From a virus, in the IMG/VR virus record IMGVR_UViG_3300009610_000362, positions 1-27,517 of that record: a stretch of 27,517 nt of DNA; one strand, given 5' to 3'. The translations under genes and the position numbers were made by a program. The notes below the pieces were generated by a model. The model was not told the origin of the DNA. It saw only the letters and a program-made list of their open reading frames with translations, and searched no databases. This document shows positions 1-24,064 of this stretch, in pieces. Position 1 is the first letter of the stretch, and every line of letters starts with the position of its first letter.

Positions 1-28
1 CGATTAAGGCCGAATAGGAGATATGAAA

Positions 29-772
29 ATGAACATTTTTGGAATGCCCGAATCAGCCGCGCATGCTTGGGATATGGTTCCTGAATCAGACAAGGTGCCG
101 AACATTAGTGCAAGCAAAACGCCTGAACCTATCGTCATTGCAGCCGAAAAATTGAAGGGTAAGGAATCAATGGGCCGAGGTATCTGTGGTGCAATGCGCG
201 TGAAATTGGATACCGTGGAATTCGTATTCAAGTCTGTAGACGAATCATCATTGATAAACGAATACCTCGCCTATCGTTTCGCTGAGGCACTAGGTTATCG
301 TTTCGTTCCTGCTACTTACTTCTGCCGCGATGAGAATTGGAATTTCTTCTCTCTGCAACGGTTCATTCCCAACATGAATTGTTGGTCAGATTGGAGTGGT
401 AAGGCACAAAACGCGAGAGCAAAGGTTAACGGCCGAAAACTCGCGCATTGCTATCTGTTCGACTACCTCATTTCAAACGGAGATAGGCATGGCGGAAATT
501 TCATGATAGGTGAGTCTGGAAAGTTTGCAGCAATCGACCACCATATTATTTTTCAAGATTACTATCGTGGTCTCTTTCCTTCCGTTTGCTATGACGGTAG
601 TATTGATTACAAAACGCCCGTCAATGAATTCGCCATGCGATTGAATCGCGCAAACCTTGCTCAATACAAAAACATTCTCGGTGCGAATCGATGGGAGCAA
701 GTGAGCGAAGGAATCCGCACGATTGGAATGCACGCAAACGGAACGCTACAACAAATGCACGACGCTTTGTAG
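29..772 (+). CDS. HipA/PI-kinase-like small protein kinase
   Basis: The protein (247 aa from this start) has the motif order of the HipA / phosphatidylinositol-kinase-like fold. Numbering from the upstream in-frame ATG at 23, there is a Gly-rich stretch (about 50-57), a strand with a candidate ATP-binding Lys70, and a helix NEYLAYRFAEALG whose Glu80 could salt-bridge to it. A catalytic loop NGDRHGGNF gives Asp154 and Asn159, and AIDH gives the metal-binding Asp172. HipA kinases are usually about 400 aa or more, so this is a minimal version, and no HipB-like antitoxin lies beside it. AGGAG at 16-20 is 8 nt from the ATG at 29 but only 2 nt from the ATG at 23, so 29 is preferred. Its own terminator follows, so it is probably expressed apart from the late genes. 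The substrate is unknown; modification of a host protein is a plausible role. The kinase fold is fairly sure, the function is not. Confidence 0.7.
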   Translation: MNIFGMPESAAHAWDMVPESDKVPNISASKTPEPIVIAAEKLKGKESMGRGICGAMRVKLDTVEFVFKSVDESSLINEYLAYRFAEALGYRFVPATYFCRDENWNFFSLQRFIPNMNCWSDWSGKAQNARAKVNGRKLAHCYLFDYLISNGDRHGGNFMIGESGKFAAIDHHIIFQDYYRGLFPSVCYDGSIDYKTPVNEFAMRLNRANLAQYKNILGANRWEQVSEGIRTIGMHANGTLQQMHDAL

Positions 773-797
773 CAATACCTAGACTCGCATAAGGGAA

Positions 798-827
798 GAG
801 GGTGCATTCGTCGCACCCTTTTCTTTT
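798..827 (+). terminator. Rho-independent terminator after the kinase gene
   Basis: AGGGTGC (799-805) pairs perfectly with GCACCCT (813-819) around a 7-nt loop, with a possible extra G-T pair at the base. The run TTTTCTTTT follows. It lies 26 nt after the kinase stop codon and separates that gene from the control region upstream of the terminase genes. Confidence 0.85.
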
Positions 828-848
828 GCCCAACAGACAATGAATATG

Positions 849-912
849 TATGCATCACAATGTATATTTATACAGCCTGTATAACTATGCATGACTATGC
901 ATAAATATGCAC
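849..912. repeat. TATGCAT repeat cluster, last three copies phased at 10 bp
   Basis: TATGCAT occurs at 849-855, 886-892 and 896-902, with a near copy TATGCAC at 906-912. The last three start at 886, 896 and 906, exactly one helical turn apart. The first two of these sit in a perfect 9-base direct repeat ACTATGCAT (884-892 and 894-902). Each full copy contains the palindrome ATGCAT. This is what a protein-binding array (operator, iteron, or terminase recognition site) looks like; the binding protein is unknown. Confidence 0.55.
869..883. promoter_or_regulatory. Operator-like dyad TATACAG-C-CTGTATA
   Basis: A perfect 7-bp inverted repeat with a one-base centre, directly abutting the first ACTATGCAT direct repeat. 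Size and symmetry suit a dimeric helix-turn-helix regulator. The half-sites resemble LexA half-sites but in the opposite order, so this is not a canonical LexA box. Confidence 0.4.
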
Positions 913-966
913 CCCATATGGGCATCTTTCGCGGGGCCCTTTCCCCGGCGAACGGAGTGAGCCTCA

Positions 967-996
967 GCACTTGCACTTGAGCACCTTGAGCACTTG
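967..996. repeat. GCACTTG direct-repeat cluster
   Basis: GCACTTG occurs at 967-973, 973-979 and 990-996, with a one-base-expanded copy GCACCTTG at 981-988, all on one strand within 30 bp. It lies just downstream of the GC-rich hairpin at 932-947. It could be a binding array or slippage-derived; role unknown. Confidence 0.45.
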
Positions 997-1211: not shown

Positions 1212-1763
1212 ATGTTCATAGACGAAAAAGAAGCAGACCAGAAATTATCGAGTCTGGACAACTTACTGAATCGTTTGAATGGTAGTTCCAAAGTAGACTA
1301 TCGTAAAGTTGGTGGTGACAAGGGGAGAGAGAAGGGAAGAATAGAAGATAGTCTAGAGAAGAAGGCTGAAATAGCTACTGATGCAATAGTTATGGGCCCC
1401 TCGGCCGCCGCAGCTAAACATGATACAACTATCAGCCGAGCCTCTTTATTGTCAAGAGGAATAGTAACCCACCGCAATTCGTCAGATGAAGAACTCGCCC
1501 CACTAGTCCAATCTAAGAAAGACCAAGTCCACGAAAAAGCACTCGACATTATTACCAAGACTTTATTGTCCTTGGATTCCAAAATAGATTCAGTGCAAAA
1601 GCCAGTAGACTTATCTGCAATTGCGGCTAACATGGCAAAAATTGCAGAGAAGACAGGAGGTAAAGGTTATAGACAAGAAGAAGATAATAGACCCAAGGTT
1701 CAAGTTGTAATCTTTACCCCGCGTTCCAAAGAAGCAGAAGAATTTGAAACCATTGACATTTAA
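1212..1763 (+). CDS. Probable terminase small subunit
   Basis: 183 aa. The small terminase subunit recognises phage DNA and hands it to the large subunit for packaging. The assignment rests on position (one gene before the large subunit) and architecture. The N-terminus is charged and helical. Residues about 60-85 (MGPSAAAAKHDTTISRASLLSRG) could form a helix-turn-helix. A long helical middle includes DLSAIAANMAKIAEKTGG, and the C-terminal strand-rich tail (NRPKVQVVIFTP then EEFETIDI) resembles the portal/large-subunit-contacting tail of many small subunits. AGGAAG at 1199-1204 lies 7 nt before the ATG. A second reading frame overlaps the first 74 nt. No single motif is diagnostic, so a scaffold or regulator is not excluded. 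Confidence 0.55.
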   Translation: MFIDEKEADQKLSSLDNLLNRLNGSSKVDYRKVGGDKGREKGRIEDSLEKKAEIATDAIVMGPSAAAAKHDTTISRASLLSRGIVTHRNSSDEELAPLVQSKKDQVHEKALDIITKTLLSLDSKIDSVQKPVDLSAIAANMAKIAEKTGGKGYRQEEDNRPKVQVVIFTPRSKEAEEFETIDI

Positions 1764-1781: not shown

Positions 1782-2312
1782 ATGCCTGATTCAACAAAGT
1801 CAGTGAACAAACCTCTTCCTCTAGCTGCACCTCTAACGGAAATTGGTAATGAGGAAGTTAGGAAAACAGTTCTAGGACCAGCAACAATCGTAGGAAGTAA
1901 TCCTACTTCGGCCCAGATGGAAAAGGCGCGTGAGGATGGTCGAAAGATTATTGAAGATAAAGTAGCCGATAGCCGAGCCTATGTGGAGAGTGACGAAGCA
2001 ATTCCACAACGTGGCGACTATGTTTCTTTTGTTTATAGTAAGGTTGATTATCCCACTGCAAAGCTAGGCAATCTCCAAGGCACTGATGTTGTTTGCTATG
2101 GTCGTGTCCATTCTGTTGAACATGAAATGGTCCGTGGATTGGATGGGATTGAATTCCAGGGCCGAGCAACATTCGTTCGTGTGTCTGTAATCAATAACAA
2201 CATGGAAGCTGAGACTGTTACTATTCCCTATGGAAAGATGTCTCGACTTGATGTTGTTGATTCTAATTGGTCTAGACCAGGAACAACTCCAGTTCCGATG
2301 TCCGATAAGTAA
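1782..2312 (+). CDS. Hypothetical protein between the terminase subunits
   Basis: 176 aa, not recognised. The first 75 residues are polar and probably flexible or helical. Residues about 76-160 are strand-rich (GDYVSFVYSKVDYP, GRVHSVEHEMVRG, RATFVRVSVINN, AETVTIPYGKMSRLDVVD) and could form a small beta-barrel. There is no signal peptide, membrane segment or cysteine pair. GGGAG lies just upstream of the ATG. Its place between the two terminase genes suggests a packaging accessory or a minor virion protein, but nothing in the sequence proves this. Confidence 0.6.
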   Translation: MPDSTKSVNKPLPLAAPLTEIGNEEVRKTVLGPATIVGSNPTSAQMEKAREDGRKIIEDKVADSRAYVESDEAIPQRGDYVSFVYSKVDYPTAKLGNLQGTDVVCYGRVHSVEHEMVRGLDGIEFQGRATFVRVSVINNNMEAETVTIPYGKMSRLDVVDSNWSRPGTTPVPMSDK

Positions 2313-2313
2313 T

Positions 2314-2332
2314 CTTACTTTAGTAAAGTAAG
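2314..2332 (+). promoter_or_regulatory. Inverted repeat between a stop codon and the large-terminase GTG start
   Basis: CTTACTTTA (2314-2322) and TAAAGTAAG (2324-2332) are exact reverse complements around one base. As RNA this gives a hairpin of about 7 bp with a 5-nt loop. It begins 1 nt after the upstream TAA and ends 3 nt before the GTG at 2336, where a ribosome-binding site would normally be. There is no U-tract, so it is not a terminator. It may tune translation of the large subunit. Confidence 0.5.
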
Positions 2333-2335
2333 CAG

Positions 2336-4012
2336 GTGAATCTCAACGCCGAATCGCCTATCGAAAAGGCGTGGAAGCCTCATCGGAAGCAACAGGAGTT
2401 TATTCAAATTCCATTCGAGGTTGCCGAAGGATTATACGGCGGAGCGGCAGGTGGGGGGAAGTCTGAATTACTTGTCATGCTTCCCCTCATTTATAGATTC
2501 CATGAACATCCTAAATTCAAGGGAATTATACTCCGCCGAACTAATCCAGAATTAGAAGCAGAAATCATCGGCCGAGCACATGAATGGTATAGAGAGACAG
2601 GGGCAATTTGGAATGAAGGTAAGAAGACTTATACTTGGCAAGACCAATGGGGCAATGATGGCGCGAAAATGCGCTTTGGTCATGCTGAACTTGAGAAAGA
2701 CATTAGAAAGTATGATGGAGTTCAGTATAACTACGTCGCCTTTGATGAGGCAACTTCTTTCACCGAATTCCAATACTTATATCTTATTCTCACTCGGCGC
2801 CGCTCTGCAACTACTGACCTTCCCGCTATTGGCCGTTCTGCCACAAACCCCGGTAACATCGGCCACGTATTTCATCGTTCCCGTTTTGTTGACCCTTACC
2901 CTCCGGGCGGTAAGATTTTACGGGATAAGCTTACAGGTATTAAACGATTCTTCCTCCAATGCATCGGAACTGAGAATCCATTTCTCATCAAAGCCAATCC
3001 ACGATACTTCGATGATATGCGTGGATTGCCAGATGCCGAATATCGAGCTAAGGCATTAGGAGATTGGTATACATTTTCTGGTCAGGTATTTACTGAGTTT
3101 CGTCTTGAACCTTTAGATGATGAACCACCAGAAGCTAGACATGTAATTGAGCCATTTGAAATTCCTAGTTGGTGGCCGAAAGTCATTGCTATAGATTGGG
3201 GATTCCTAGCTTATACAGTAATTGGTTGGGGAGCAATTGCGCCGACCGGAAGGCTTTATATTTATAGAATCTATGCAGTCAAAGGGAGTTACATTACTGA
3301 CTGGATTGGAGAACTCATCAATCGAACTGGTGATGAATGGGAAATGGTAAGGGACATTGTTATTTGTCATTCGGCCAACCAGAATAGGGGCGAGCCACAT
3401 ACGATTTTTAATCAAGTTCAGGATGCATTGAATAAAGAGTTCGATTCAGTAATGCAGACTCCAACAGTTAGGTTAGGTAAGAGAGATAGAATAGGTGGTA
3501 AATTACTTATTCATGAATATCTTAGGTGGAAGCAGAAGCCAACTAGACCAGTTCCAATAGAGCAGTATAACGAGGCTCTTGCAGAAAAGATTCTAAGATT
3601 AAATGGGACAGCAAAGTATCAGGAATATTTATCTTTCTTTCAAGAGAAAGCGCCAGAGACTAATTTACCAAAGTTACAAATCTTCTCTCATTCGCCTGAA
3701 GGTCACAGTAACGAATTGCTCTATGATACTATCCCCCTTTGCATGTATGCAGATAAGGGCGAGAAGGATAAGACGCCTGAAGACGTAAAGGAATTTGAGG
3801 GTGATGACCCATATGACATGTTACGAATGCTTTTAGAGAGCGTAGATAGATATACAAGTGAATCAACAAATGAATCTGACAAATTGGCTCAGCGAGATAA
3901 AATTATTCAGCAGTTCCAAGTTTCAGGTGATGCAACTTCGTTTTATCGCCGTATGGAAAAGCTGGAATCTGGTTCAAAGACTTTTGGTGTTCGGCGCTTT
4001 AGTCGGCGTTAG
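2336..4012 (+). CDS. terL: Terminase large subunit (packaging ATPase/nuclease)
   Basis: 558 aa, a normal length. The motor domain has Walker A YGGAAGGGKSE (residues 34-44, Lys42), Walker B YVAFDEA (133-139, Asp137/Glu138) and coupling motif SATNPGN (168-174). The C-terminal RNase-H-like nuclease begins at KVIAIDWGF with catalytic Asp287, and the later GDDPYDML (about 488-495) supplies further acidic residues. It drives DNA into the prohead and cuts concatemers. The start is GTG with no clear Shine-Dalgarno and a hairpin immediately upstream, so translation is probably coupled to, or controlled from, the preceding gene. A shorter in-frame start was not needed because the Walker A lies only 34 residues in. 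Confidence 0.95.
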   Translation: MNLNAESPIEKAWKPHRKQQEFIQIPFEVAEGLYGGAAGGGKSELLVMLPLIYRFHEHPKFKGIILRRTNPELEAEIIGRAHEWYRETGAIWNEGKKTYTWQDQWGNDGAKMRFGHAELEKDIRKYDGVQYNYVAFDEATSFTEFQYLYLILTRRRSATTDLPAIGRSATNPGNIGHVFHRSRFVDPYPPGGKILRDKLTGIKRFFLQCIGTENPFLIKANPRYFDDMRGLPDAEYRAKALGDWYTFSGQVFTEFRLEPLDDEPPEARHVIEPFEIPSWWPKVIAIDWGFLAYTVIGWGAIAPTGRLYIYRIYAVKGSYITDWIGELINRTGDEWEMVRDIVICHSANQNRGEPHTIFNQVQDALNKEFDSVMQTPTVRLGKRDRIGGKLLIHEYLRWKQKPTRPVPIEQYNEALAEKILRLNGTAKYQEYLSFFQEKAPETNLPKLQIFSHSPEGHSNELLYDTIPLCMYADKGEKDKTPEDVKEFEGDDPYDMLRMLLESVDRYTSESTNESDKLAQRDKIIQQFQVSGDATSFYRRMEKLESGSKTFGVRRFSRR

Positions 4013-4040
4013 TATTAAGAGCTTTGTTTGGGAAAAAGAA

Positions 4041-4328
4041 ATGCCCTGCAAAACATGTGAAATATTTTTTGATGAAGTTAGGTACCTCCGAGAAGAGATA
4101 AAGATTCTCAGGGCCGAGAGAAATGATTTACAGGCAAAGCTATTTGGTTTACTTCGTCTACCTACCACCTTGCAGGCATTGAAGGTTGAAAGTTCAGAAC
4201 CCCAAAGAATTCAAGGGGTTCAGTCTCCTATGAGGCAGCGTATACAGGCCGAAGCCGAAAGTAAGAAGAAGTATTGGGAAGAAAAGCTAAAGAAATCTGA
4301 AGAACTTCCTGAAGCAGTTACTAGTTAG
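4041..4328 (+). CDS. Small coiled-coil protein with N-terminal CxxC
   Basis: 95 aa, not recognised. Cys3 and Cys6 form a CxxC. Residues about 10-35 are a strongly charged amphipathic helix (DEVRYLREEIKILRAERNDLQAKL) likely to form a coiled coil. A second charged helix (about 66-88) is near the C-terminus. The same frame stays open upstream into the large-terminase gene, but the ATG at 4041 with a GGGAAA-like site avoids a 155-nt overlap. The position between large terminase and portal fits a head or packaging accessory. Confidence 0.55.
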   Translation: MPCKTCEIFFDEVRYLREEIKILRAERNDLQAKLFGLLRLPTTLQALKVESSEPQRIQGVQSPMRQRIQAEAESKKKYWEEKLKKSEELPEAVTS

Positions 4329-5462: not shown

Positions 5463-7907
5463 ATGTATCCACCTATTGAGCCAGAAGTAGAAGATATCGA
5501 CAATGAGGTTCAAGGCTTGGACCCTGAAGTGGGTGGTCTACTTCCTGATGAAATGCTCTCTGATGAAATTGATGGTGGACTTCCTCCAGATGGGGATATT
5601 CCTAATCCAGGTGAGACTCCTATTCCGAATGAGGAAGTTGAAGAGACTATCGATGAAGATGATACGTTACCAGAAGAAATCAAAACAGCACTCAAATCAA
5701 TTGTAGATGAATTCGATAGGAACGAACAGCCAGTCCGCGAGAATATGATTCGTTTCTGGAAGAAGCTAGATTTATTCTGGAAGGGAATACAAGATATTTA
5801 TTGGGATTATTCTGCAAAGGATTATAGACGCCTAAATACTGACAATGATGGACAAGCCGGGGAAATTGACCATTACTATCAGGATAAAATCATCAACATC
5901 TTCAGAGCACATGGTGAAAGTGTAATTAGTGCTCTCTCACAAGATGTTCCAACGACGATATTCCCGCCTGATGATGCAGATAATCCCGACGACCAAGCTA
6001 CGTCTAAAGGTTATACTAAGGCGGCCGAACTTCTACAAAAGTGTAATGATGTTGAATATCTTTTGATGTATGCAATCCAAGTTCTTTGGTGTCAGGGTGT
6101 TGTAGGCGCATATAATTACAACACAACTGACTTTGAATTTGGTTCGTACATGGAACCTCAATTCAAAGAGATTACTGATTACGAGCGAGAATATAATTGT
6201 GATACTTGTGGTGCTCCAATGCAAGGTGAGGGTGAACCTTGTATAGATTGCGAGCAGGGTTCGGGCATGTTGATGAATGAAACTCCTGTAAAAAGGACTG
6301 TTTATTCACATGATGCCGAAATGCCTAAGCGTCGGGAACGAATTGAATTCTATGGGCCGTTAAATTTCAGAATTCCTCATTATGTTACTGCACCAAAGCA
6401 TTCACCTTATGTCATGTTGGACACGGAGTGCCATATTGACTATGTGCGTGACTTGTTTCCAAATCTTGATATTTCTGAAGAGCATGATTTAGGGAAGTAT
6501 GATAGGTGGGCACGAACTTCTACTGATTACCAGGGTGATTTTACTACCGGATTAGTCACTCTTCGTAGAGTTTGGCTTCGAGCTTGGGTTTATAACCGAT
6601 ATAAGCGTGACCAAAAGGAAATCTATACTTTTCTTACTACGAATTTCCCCGAAGGACTCAAAGTTACTCTTGTAAATGATAAAATAGCTGAAATTGTTAA
6701 GGAAGATGTAGACGACCACTGGACATTTACTCAAAGTCCTCTCTCTACACATATCCATGCCGAACCCTTGGGTGCTAGTTTACTTCCAATTCAGGAAATG
6801 CGGAATGAATTGGTCGTTCTAAAGCTCCAAACTGTCGAGTATGGAATTCCAGAGACATTTGCCGACCCCTCAGTGCTTGATTTTGACCAGTATAGGAAAC
6901 GAGAGAATCGGCCGGGAGAGGTTTATCCAGCTAAAGCCATTCCTGGTATGGGATTGGATGCTGGGTTTACTACACTAAAAACGGCGGTCTTTCCAAAGGA
7001 AGCAAACGATTTCCAACAGAGTCTAGACCAAGATGGTCAGTTCATGAGTGGTGCATTTCCATCTGTATATGGTGGTGCAATGCCTTCGGCGTCCAAAACG
7101 GCGGCCGAATACCAAATGAGTCGTAATCAGGCATTGCAGAGACTTCAGAATACTTGGAAAATCCTATCTAGGTTCTGGGCAAAGGTAATGGACAAGTCAG
7201 TTCGGTCCTTTATCTTGAATATGCAGAAGGATGAGCAATTCGTTAAGAAGCAGGGTAGTTCATACATTAATATGTATATTCGCCAGTCTGAAATGACTGG
7301 TCGCGTAGGCGTGGCCGAACCTGAAATAGCGCAAACCTTCCCAATGAGTTGGATGCAGAAGAAGGATATGCTAGTTCAGATGATGCAATTGAATAACGAA
7401 TATATCAATGAGGCATTGTTCCATCCAGAGAATACTGGGTTGCTTGCTCAATACCTTGGATTCAAAGATTTTCATATTCCTGGGGATGATGACCGTTCCA
7501 AGCAGTTGAGAGAGATTCAAGATATGCTCTTATCTGAGCCTATTGAGAATGTTCCTCCTGCAATGGGACAGGGAATGGAACAAAGTGGAATGCCTCCCCA
7601 ACAGGGGCAAGAATTACCACCAATGGAAGGTGGGGGAAATCAACCACAGGGACCACCCCCAATGCAATCCACTGTTCCTGTTGACCCTGAAATGGATAAT
7701 CATAAGATAGAGCATGAAACGTGTCTATCTTGGATGAAGTCAGAAATTGGACAGGAAGCTAAGATATCCAATCCTGCTGGATTCCTTAATATTCGCACTC
7801 ATGCGGCCGAACATCTTAAGTTTGTTATTATGGAGCAGGAACAAGAAGCTGAGGCAGGACAAGAAAGTGCAGAAGGTGAACCTATGCCAGAAGGAGAACA
7901 GGAATAA
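5463..7907 (+). CDS. Portal protein, P22-like, with inserted zinc ribbon
   Basis: 814 aa, long like P22-type portals. The portal ring is the DNA gate of the capsid and the docking point for terminase and tail. An acidic Pro-rich leader (1-70) precedes the portal core. The core includes helices with KIINIFRAHGESVISALSQ and the segment PSVYGGAMPSASKTAAEYQM before long stem/crown helices. Residues 246-263 hold C-x2-C-x10-C-x2-C, a zinc-ribbon insertion. The C-terminus is Met/Pro/Gln/Glu-rich and ends with a helical segment. The ATG immediately follows the upstream stop. Position after large terminase and before scaffold/capsid supports the call. Confidence 0.8.
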   Translation: MYPPIEPEVEDIDNEVQGLDPEVGGLLPDEMLSDEIDGGLPPDGDIPNPGETPIPNEEVEETIDEDDTLPEEIKTALKSIVDEFDRNEQPVRENMIRFWKKLDLFWKGIQDIYWDYSAKDYRRLNTDNDGQAGEIDHYYQDKIINIFRAHGESVISALSQDVPTTIFPPDDADNPDDQATSKGYTKAAELLQKCNDVEYLLMYAIQVLWCQGVVGAYNYNTTDFEFGSYMEPQFKEITDYEREYNCDTCGAPMQGEGEPCIDCEQGSGMLMNETPVKRTVYSHDAEMPKRRERIEFYGPLNFRIPHYVTAPKHSPYVMLDTECHIDYVRDLFPNLDISEEHDLGKYDRWARTSTDYQGDFTTGLVTLRRVWLRAWVYNRYKRDQKEIYTFLTTNFPEGLKVTLVNDKIAEIVKEDVDDHWTFTQSPLSTHIHAEPLGASLLPIQEMRNELVVLKLQTVEYGIPETFADPSVLDFDQYRKRENRPGEVYPAKAIPGMGLDAGFTTLKTAVFPKEANDFQQSLDQDGQFMSGAFPSVYGGAMPSASKTAAEYQMSRNQALQRLQNTWKILSRFWAKVMDKSVRSFILNMQKDEQFVKKQGSSYINMYIRQSEMTGRVGVAEPEIAQTFPMSWMQKKDMLVQMMQLNNEYINEALFHPENTGLLAQYLGFKDFHIPGDDDRSKQLREIQDMLLSEPIENVPPAMGQGMEQSGMPPQQGQELPPMEGGGNQPQGPPPMQSTVPVDPEMDNHKIEHETCLSWMKSEIGQEAKISNPAGFLNIRTHAAEHLKFVIMEQEQEAEAGQESAEGEPMPEGEQE

Positions 7908-15839: not shown

Positions 15840-17090
15840 ATGGCTTTGACTGAATCTGCTGTTCTAGCGAATGAGCTAGAGAGAGTCAGTCCAAAAGTCC
15901 CCACTCTTTTCGATAGGGAAGCTACTTGGTTTAGCTCTATTGAAAAAAGGCCAGTTGAAAAGGTTTCAGCTAGGGACATGAGGATTCCCCTCGAAATTCG
16001 TCCTGGTGGAAACTTTGGACACTTTGACCCAGATGGTGGCGACCTTGGATTGGGCGATGGGCCGAGCTTTGATAAGGCAGTAGTTTCTACTGTCCATCTT
16101 CGCCATGCAGTTGAATGGACGAAGAAGGCTGAATGGGCTACTGACGATGCACGGAAAGCCGTTCTTAATACTTTCCGTCATCTCCTTGCAAAGTCAATGG
16201 CCGAATTCCGCCGTCATGTTGATTCTTTGTGCATGACAGGTGGGGATGGAGTCCTCGGCGTTGTTTCTGCCACTGCCAATGGTGGTGGTTTTGATACAAT
16301 TGATTTGAATACAGACGGATTTGGAGCACGTTTGCTCCGATTCGGCCAGACAATCAATGTGTATAATGCTGCACTCAGTACCAATAGGACAGTTGGTGCT
16401 GAGAAGAAAATCACTTTCCATGACCTGCAAGCGAAGCAGATTAAAATCCCAACTGTTGCAGGTATTATTGCAACAGATAAGATTGTGGTTGGTGGTTTGT
16501 CTGCAACTCCCCCGGTTTCCCTCCTTGGGATTCCATATCATCATTCTAATGCATCGACTGGTTCGTGGCTTGGTTTCGACCGTGCCACTACTCCTGAAAT
16601 TCGTGCAAATCGAGTGAATGCTAACGGTGGTCTTGCATTGCCTTTCCCCCGCCTTGCCATCAATAAGATTGGTGATAGGGTCGGAATGGATTACAATGCA
16701 AAACTCACTGCTTGGATGCATCCTTGCCAAAAGCAGGCATATGAGGAACTTGGTCAGCTTGTTTCTATTATCAATAAGAATGCGAAACAGGATAATCTTG
16801 ACCTTTATTTCTCAGATAATATGCAGATGGCGGGAGCGCCTGTTAAGACCAGCTTCTCTTGGGACAAAAAGCGTATTGACTTTGTTCTATCAGAGGTTTG
16901 GGGCCGAGCGGAAATGCATCCTGCGGGTTTCTACACAGTTGATGGCCGGAAGATTTTCGAGCTTCGTGGTGCATCAGGTGGTGTGAAAACTTCGCAGATT
17001 TTCTACATTACCGCTTCGTTCAACCTGTTTGTCAACAATCCAGCAGCTTGCTCTTACATTGATGGCCTAAGTGTCCCATCTGGTTACTAA
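15840..17090 (+). CDS. Major capsid protein
   Basis: 416 aa. It follows the scaffold-like gene and is followed by a strong terminator, typical of the most highly expressed phage gene. It begins MALTESAVLANELERVSPKV, then DREATWFSSIEKR and a Gly/Asp-rich loop (GHFDPDGGDLGLGDG) that could be the extended E-loop. A long helix follows (AVLNTFRHLLAKSMAEFRRHVDSLCM). It ends with the beta-rich YITASFNLFVNNPAACSYIDGL. No signal or membrane segment is present. The HK97-like fold is expected from the phage type, not read from a specific motif. AGGA lies 11 nt before the ATG. The 42-nt gap upstream is AT-rich and could hold an extra promoter. Confidence 0.75.
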   Translation: MALTESAVLANELERVSPKVPTLFDREATWFSSIEKRPVEKVSARDMRIPLEIRPGGNFGHFDPDGGDLGLGDGPSFDKAVVSTVHLRHAVEWTKKAEWATDDARKAVLNTFRHLLAKSMAEFRRHVDSLCMTGGDGVLGVVSATANGGGFDTIDLNTDGFGARLLRFGQTINVYNAALSTNRTVGAEKKITFHDLQAKQIKIPTVAGIIATDKIVVGGLSATPPVSLLGIPYHHSNASTGSWLGFDRATTPEIRANRVNANGGLALPFPRLAINKIGDRVGMDYNAKLTAWMHPCQKQAYEELGQLVSIINKNAKQDNLDLYFSDNMQMAGAPVKTSFSWDKKRIDFVLSEVWGRAEMHPAGFYTVDGRKIFELRGASGGVKTSQIFYITASFNLFVNNPAACSYIDGLSVPSGY

Positions 17091-22870: not shown

Positions 22871-24064
22871 ATGGGCAATTCTCAGGCCAAAAAGACAAAC
22901 AAAATGATGGACCAGGAGCAATCTAGGCTCTTGGGTGATAACTCTGCCTATAATTCTCAAATGGGTAGAGAACGCAACCAAACAAAATCTTGGTCGGATT
23001 CTGCTCGTGATGATATTTATGGTGGGTATAAGAATTTAATGGACCCCAACTTTGGGGGTGCAGGTGGAAGTGGTGGAGGTGGTGGATATACTGCACCACA
23101 AATGTCACTCCATAAAACACTACAAGGATTGAAGACTGATGATTATGGGAAACTAAAGCAAGGTGCTCATGATGCCTTGAGTGGCTATAATGAGTTTGCC
23201 AAGACTGGTGGATACTCGGATTCAGACCAAGCTAATATTCGAGCTAGGTCTAATTCGACTATCCCATCATTCATGGAAGGTCTAAGAAACAATATGAGCC
23301 AGAAGGCTAATGCCGCTGGTTCAAATGTGGGTAGTATTTTCTCATCTGCATCAGGTCGATTGGCAAGGCAGGGAGCACAAGCGGCTGGTGAACAGGCTTC
23401 TAATACAGAGATGGATTTATCAGATAGAATTAGGTCTGGTAGACAGTGGGGTATTGGTGGTCAGGCAGATATTGGTAAGGTTGGTCTGAGTGGAATGCAA
23501 GATATTGGTAATACAGAACAATCCATTCAGAATGAGAATGACCAAGCTGCTGCTAGTGCTGCTAATGCTAATGCTTCGGCCGCTTCTGGTGCTAGAGATG
23601 ACCAATATCGTCGATATATGTCTGGTTTAGGTGGAATGCAGGAAATGTATGGTAGCAGTCCAGCAGAACTAGCTAGATACGATGATATGGCAATGCAGAA
23701 TCGTGGCCTAACTGGTGGATTAGTTGGTAATAACCTTGACCGTAAGGCTGCCTATAATCCTAATGTTAGCACAATGGATAAGATTGGTAAGATTGCTGGA
23801 ACTGTTGGTAAGGTTGCTGGCACGGCTGCTATGTTCTCATCTAGAGAGCTAAAGGATAACATTGTAGAACTTGACCCACAGACAGTAGCAGAAGGATTGA
23901 AGAAACTTAAGCTGTATAATTGGAACTATAAGGGTGAGAAGATTCGCCATATGGGTCCAATTGCTGAGGAATTCAAGGAAATCTTTGGTGTTGGTGATGG
24001 TGTAACAATTAATATTATTGATGTTATGGCAGTCCTTCTGGCAGCAGAAAAGGCTAGACTGTAA
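22871..24064 (+). CDS. Virion protein with C-terminal S74-type chaperone domain
   Basis: 397 aa. The N-terminal 310 residues are polar, Gly/Ser/Ala/Asn/Gln-rich and partly helical, with a Gly run at about 62-72. The last 75 residues match an intramolecular chaperone (peptidase S74, endosialidase type). They begin SSRELKDNI with Ser323 and Lys328 at the Ser/Lys dyad spacing of that family, followed by LKKLKLYNWNYK, RHMGPIAEEFKEIF and a final helix. Such domains trimerise fibres and then cut themselves off. The gene lies among likely internal virion proteins, so it could be a tail needle or plug rather than a side fibre. Confidence 0.65.
   Translation: MGNSQAKKTNKMMDQEQSRLLGDNSAYNSQMGRERNQTKSWSDSARDDIYGGYKNLMDPNFGGAGGSGGGGGYTAPQMSLHKTLQGLKTDDYGKLKQGAHDALSGYNEFAKTGGYSDSDQANIRARSNSTIPSFMEGLRNNMSQKANAAGSNVGSIFSSASGRLARQGAQAAGEQASNTEMDLSDRIRSGRQWGIGGQADIGKVGLSGMQDIGNTEQSIQNENDQAAASAANANASAASGARDDQYRRYMSGLGGMQEMYGSSPAELARYDDMAMQNRGLTGGLVGNNLDRKAAYNPNVSTMDKIGKIAGTVGKVAGTAAMFSSRELKDNIVELDPQTVAEGLKKLKLYNWNYKGEKIRHMGPIAEEFKEIFGVGDGVTINIIDVMAVLLAAEKARL

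Follow-up and report, generated by a model that had tools for sequence, protein, structure and literature searches.

The left end of this viral DNA raises the question of what a small kinase gene, standing by itself next to the packaging genes of a tailed phage, contributes to that phage. The stretch analyzed here (the window) is a linear IMG/VR virus record of 27,517 bases, probably a fragment, with the gene content of the late half of an uncultured tailed phage. On balance, we favor with moderate confidence a stand-alone, catalytically competent kinase of the PI3K/PI4K-HipA clan that is carried as optional cargo and most likely acts as a Ser/Thr protein kinase on host proteins.

The kinase ORF is open on the + strand from the ATG at position 23 to position 772 (23..772), which corresponds to 249 aa, or 247 aa if translation starts at the ATG at 29. 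A ribosome-binding site, AGGAG (16..20, + strand), is located 8 nt before ATG 29 and 2 nt before ATG 23. Since the former spacing is better, the start at 29 is preferred, in agreement with the gene of about 247 aa at 29–772 proposed in a first-pass annotation of this DNA. The kinase core spans residues ~35–240. The window begins 22 bases before ATG 23, leaving the kinase promoter and any upstream partner outside it; a search among viral contigs recovered none that overlaps the left edge.

The Pfam family PI3_PI4_kinase (PF00454) matches the ORF with 40 bits (5.7e-10; curated cut-off 27.1 bits), whereas HipA_C (PF07804; 20.7 bits, cut-off 30.5), HipA_2 (PF20613; 16 bits, cut-off 27) and the SCO1664 family (TIGR03843; 29.1 bits, cut-off 172.4) all remain below their cut-offs. 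The Couple_hipA N-terminal domain was found neither in the ORF nor elsewhere in the 27.5-kb fragment. The description of this protein as HipA-like, for which an HMM search had been proposed, is therefore appropriate for the clan and not for the family: the PI3/4-kinase profile passes and HipA_C does not. Judged by these profiles, a family label other than HipA suits this kinase better. Its best match among phage families is phrog_3162 (5.6e-13), a PHROG without assigned function, and phmmer against PDB sequences gave no match.

The PI3_PI4_kinase signature, a catalytic D-R-H-x-x-N and a metal-binding aspartate, is present in the ORF, with D154, R155, H156, N159 and D172 conserved. The conservation of the active site was assessed in an alignment (A7) of 36 phage kinase rows, consisting of the window and 35 others, with residues numbered from ATG 23 and all codons on the + strand. 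The N-lobe ATP-binding lysine, Lys70 (230..232), is a lysine in 30/36 rows, and the helix-C glutamate, Glu80 (260..262), is a glutamate in 34/36, with one gap in each column. The catalytic loop N-G-D154-R-H-G-G-N159 (476..499) is even more conserved, as N152, D154, R155, H156, G158 and N159 are invariant in all 36 rows. The same is true of D172 in the metal-binding motif I-D172-H-H (533..544), which in the window kinase replaces the DFG/DHG of its relatives. The first-pass choice of Lys70, Glu80, Asp154, Asn159 and Asp172 as key residues was thus correct, and the kinase is probably catalytically competent, as predicted from these conserved positions.

The AlphaFold2 model of the kinase (mean pLDDT 80.2, pTM 0.80) consists of strands at residues 44–70, a helix at 74–89 (helix C), further strands at 98–113 and a helical C-lobe, while the N-terminus (residues 1–28) is predicted to be disordered. 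PI3K structures top the list in a Foldseek search with this model. In a second structural comparison, the top hit among the matches listed is Helicobacter pylori CtkA (Z 14.9, rmsd 3.8, 206 residues), with PI4K-II (Z 14.7) next, and then Fam20 and PI3K. The structure prediction suggested at first pass thus yields a kinase fold, closest to CtkA and PI4K-II. HipA is absent among the 50 structural matches listed, which is uninformative either way. In the comparison with viral models, the top hits come from phages and include proteins with a portal fusion as well as head-morphogenesis proteins. The HMMs, the predicted structure and conservation together support both the fold and the active site of a kinase.

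The genes that follow define the surroundings of the kinase. The first gene of the late block (1212..1763, + strand) probably encodes the small terminase subunit, an assignment made by position and by eye from an HTH-like stretch, its place before terL and its conservation in relatives. The large terminase subunit is encoded at 2336..4012 (+ strand). A portal-like gene starting at 5463 and a capsid-like gene (15840–17090) were named by position and weak profile matches, and tail genes are also present. The last ~155 nt of the large terminase gene are shared with an ORF at 3858–4328, which is kept at the same place in five relatives (L002, L084, L085, L086 and L106; 32–35% identity). The protein encoded at 22871–24064 ends in a Peptidase_S74 (endosialidase chaperone) domain and is thus a self-cleaving tail spike or fiber. 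The capsid-like protein shares 54–81% identity with proteins of uncultured relatives. Neither it nor the first 2.4 kb of the window has a BLAST match among 50,697 phage records, indicating a lineage without cultured members, and a phage without a close cultured relative, in that collection. Neither the kinase nor the portal had a relative in the genome_contigs set.

Only one ortholog of the kinase was found, and it is truncated. With the kinase as a single query sequence, neither viral nor genome contigs yielded a relative; the viral contig that holds the ortholog (L002) was instead found via its terminase (75% identity). It retains the C-terminal 125 aa of the kinase just before a small-terminase-like gene, the same place as in the window. 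This fragment is 44% identical to the window kinase over about 115 aa and passes the PI3_PI4_kinase cut-off with 31.8 bits.

The boundary 3' of the kinase gene is marked by an intrinsic terminator (792..828, + strand); the region 785–832 on the + strand folds with -23.1 kcal/mol (z -4.8), and the next gene begins 440 nt past the kinase, beyond the terminator. A terminator occurs at this boundary in three phages: that of the window, that of L002, where it differs in sequence, and that of two close relatives (L106 and L085; 73% terL identity), which look like one phage lineage and have it behind genes that do not encode a kinase. The first-pass annotation had credited the kinase with its own terminator. 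The terminator is real; since L106 has it at the same position and lacks the kinase, it is better described as an element of the boundary. In place of the kinase, these two relatives encode an AAA_5 (MoxR-like) ATPase and, downstream of it, a 400-aa protein that has no Pfam match and, by eye, an apparent D-x-S-G-S metal motif; in L106 the two genes together span 2151-4071. More distant relatives have other genes or none at this slot, and eight records of relatives, four of them ~45 kb long, contain no PI3/PI4 kinase domain. The content of this slot, between early region and late block, thus varies, and since relatives lack the kinase, it is optional cargo; its status as an accessory gene is well supported by this comparison.

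Between the terminator and the small-terminase-like gene lies a conserved, GC-rich non-coding block (911..972, + strand) that ends in CGGAGTGAGCCTCAGCA. It is kept in L002, L106 and L085, thus also without the kinase, and is a candidate packaging (pac/cos) site. The possibility that it forms a structured RNA was rejected, as it folds no better than shuffled sequences.

More distant relatives of the kinase could be detected only with a two-row profile, which located the domain at 67 viral loci. PHROG 3162 holds 33/45 of the related phage kinases. In a tree of 36 kinase domains, the window kinase was not placed in any supported set. Six other loci (L006, L008, L009, L010, L035 and L056) contain at least two very long ORFs in tandem, and in many of these a PI3K-like kinase domain forms the C-terminus; in L008, the ORFs are near a capsid-like gene. 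Kinase domains of the PI3K/HipA clan are therefore common in tailed phages, many of them fused to head proteins, and we found no report of a tested function for them in the literature.

In the mechanism that we favor, the kinase gene would be a "moron", inserted after the early region and before the small-terminase gene, with which the rightward late block begins. Its product would phosphorylate one or a few of the host's proteins during infection, and this modification would favor phage production or block rival phages. This reading is supported by homology, by an active site that is conserved, by the predicted fold, by the gene's accessory position and by the terminator that follows it. From these we infer an ATP-dependent activity, a protein rather than a lipid substrate and a host-directed role. 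Host proteins are known to be modified by the phage kinases of T7 and 933W (reviewed in PMC8008677), and phosphorylation of host proteins for takeover or superinfection exclusion is moderately likely here. Against the protein-kinase reading, the lipid kinase PI4K-II fits the fold as well as CtkA does, and the class of substrate cannot be read from sequence. A narrower proposal, that a solo, antitoxin-free kinase of the PI3K clan reprograms the host or excludes rivals by phosphorylation late in infection, is tentative and somewhat unlikely; this fold is not known to play such a role in any phage. A minimal, stand-alone kinase of ~247 aa offers an easy handle on the substrates of these domains and could show if their role is in host takeover, superinfection exclusion or growth arrest.

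A HipB antitoxin gene usually lies upstream of HipA, and the kinase could be the toxin of a HipA-type toxin-antitoxin or defense pair, whose antitoxin (HipB-like or DUF3037) would be encoded just upstream; the kinase would then arrest the host upon attack by another phage. At three loci (L022, L054 and L063), a stand-alone kinase of the same size lies behind a probable repressor gene and ahead of a partner gene of ~290 aa, identified as phrog_21150 in one of them, and the HipA_2 kinase of Staphylococcus phage PhiSepi-HH1 is also followed by a second gene. Moreover, the combination of HipA and DUF3037 (HipAD, DS-6) has been validated as an anti-phage pair and becomes toxic when DUF3037 is lost (PMC12548924, PMC13092281). 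However, HipA_2 is above its cut-off for the kinases of these three loci and L012, and below it for the window kinase. No DUF3037, HTH_3 or Couple_hipA domain is present in the 27.5-kb fragment, which starts 22 nt before the ATG, and the downstream gene is 440 nt away, behind the terminator. Low-scoring PADLOC matches were rejected as too weak to indicate a defense system. We consider this alternative unlikely.

It is less probable still that the kinase is a virion-borne effector, packaged and injected with the DNA. Among 45 distinct phage kinase ORFs, a MuF Pfam domain is found in 8 and a Mu-type portal domain in 2, and several match head or portal PHROGs. Fusions of MuF with other domains have been argued to be injected effectors (PMC5576092, PMC5512222), and by analogy the fusions of phage kinases to MuF, portal and head proteins suggest the same role. 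The rows next to the window kinase in the tree include a MuF-fused kinase (L020), a neighborhood without statistical support, and the predicted disordered N-terminus might, speculatively, be a targeting tail. The window kinase, however, has no Phage_Mu_F match in the Pfam scan and no head or portal domain; it lies outside the structural block, separated from it by the terminator, and the head modules of relatives hold no kinase elsewhere. A lipid or small-molecule kinase is the least probable reading, even though phosphoinositide kinases make up the top Pfam family and many of the structural matches and the clan includes Fam20 relatives, as the bacterial Ser/Thr kinase CtkA matches as well or better and phosphoinositide signaling is seldom used by bacterial hosts.

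The favored host-directed protein kinase can be compared with several known systems. HipA-family kinases located between the portal and MCP genes of five Gratiaviridae were described by Benler et al. (2021; PMC8008677), who compared them with T7 gp0.7. The suggestion that a kinase of this fold next to the packaging genes is a distinct solution is not new, since it had already been proposed for these phages and kinases of the clan are widespread. Both are kinases of the HipA/PI3K clan near head or packaging genes of tailed phages, and the role proposed in Gratiaviridae is late or immunity-related. However, the Gratiaviridae kinase has an AAA ATPase and a glycosyltransferase upstream, whereas the window kinase is not part of the structural block: it comes before the small-terminase gene and is set off by a terminator. 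The HipAD/DS-6/PDC-M66 pair, a HipA-like kinase with DUF3037, shares the clan, the catalytic motif and a similar size, but no DUF3037 is encoded in the fragment, whose upstream side lies outside it, and the match to PDC-M66A is weak (0.0027). The PI3K-like domains fused to MuF or portal proteins share the domain and the motif N-x-D-R-H-G-G-N; they are parts of large head proteins, whereas the window kinase stands alone. CtkA is likewise a compact kinase of the clan and the best structural match among those listed, but it is a bacterial protein with 14% identity and a role unrelated to phages. With T7 gp0.7, the window kinase would share the strategy of directing a phage-encoded kinase at host proteins, by analogy only, since gp0.7 belongs to the eukaryotic-type protein kinase family and is an early gene. 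Rather than a new system, the window kinase is a good new example of phage kinases that are already common.
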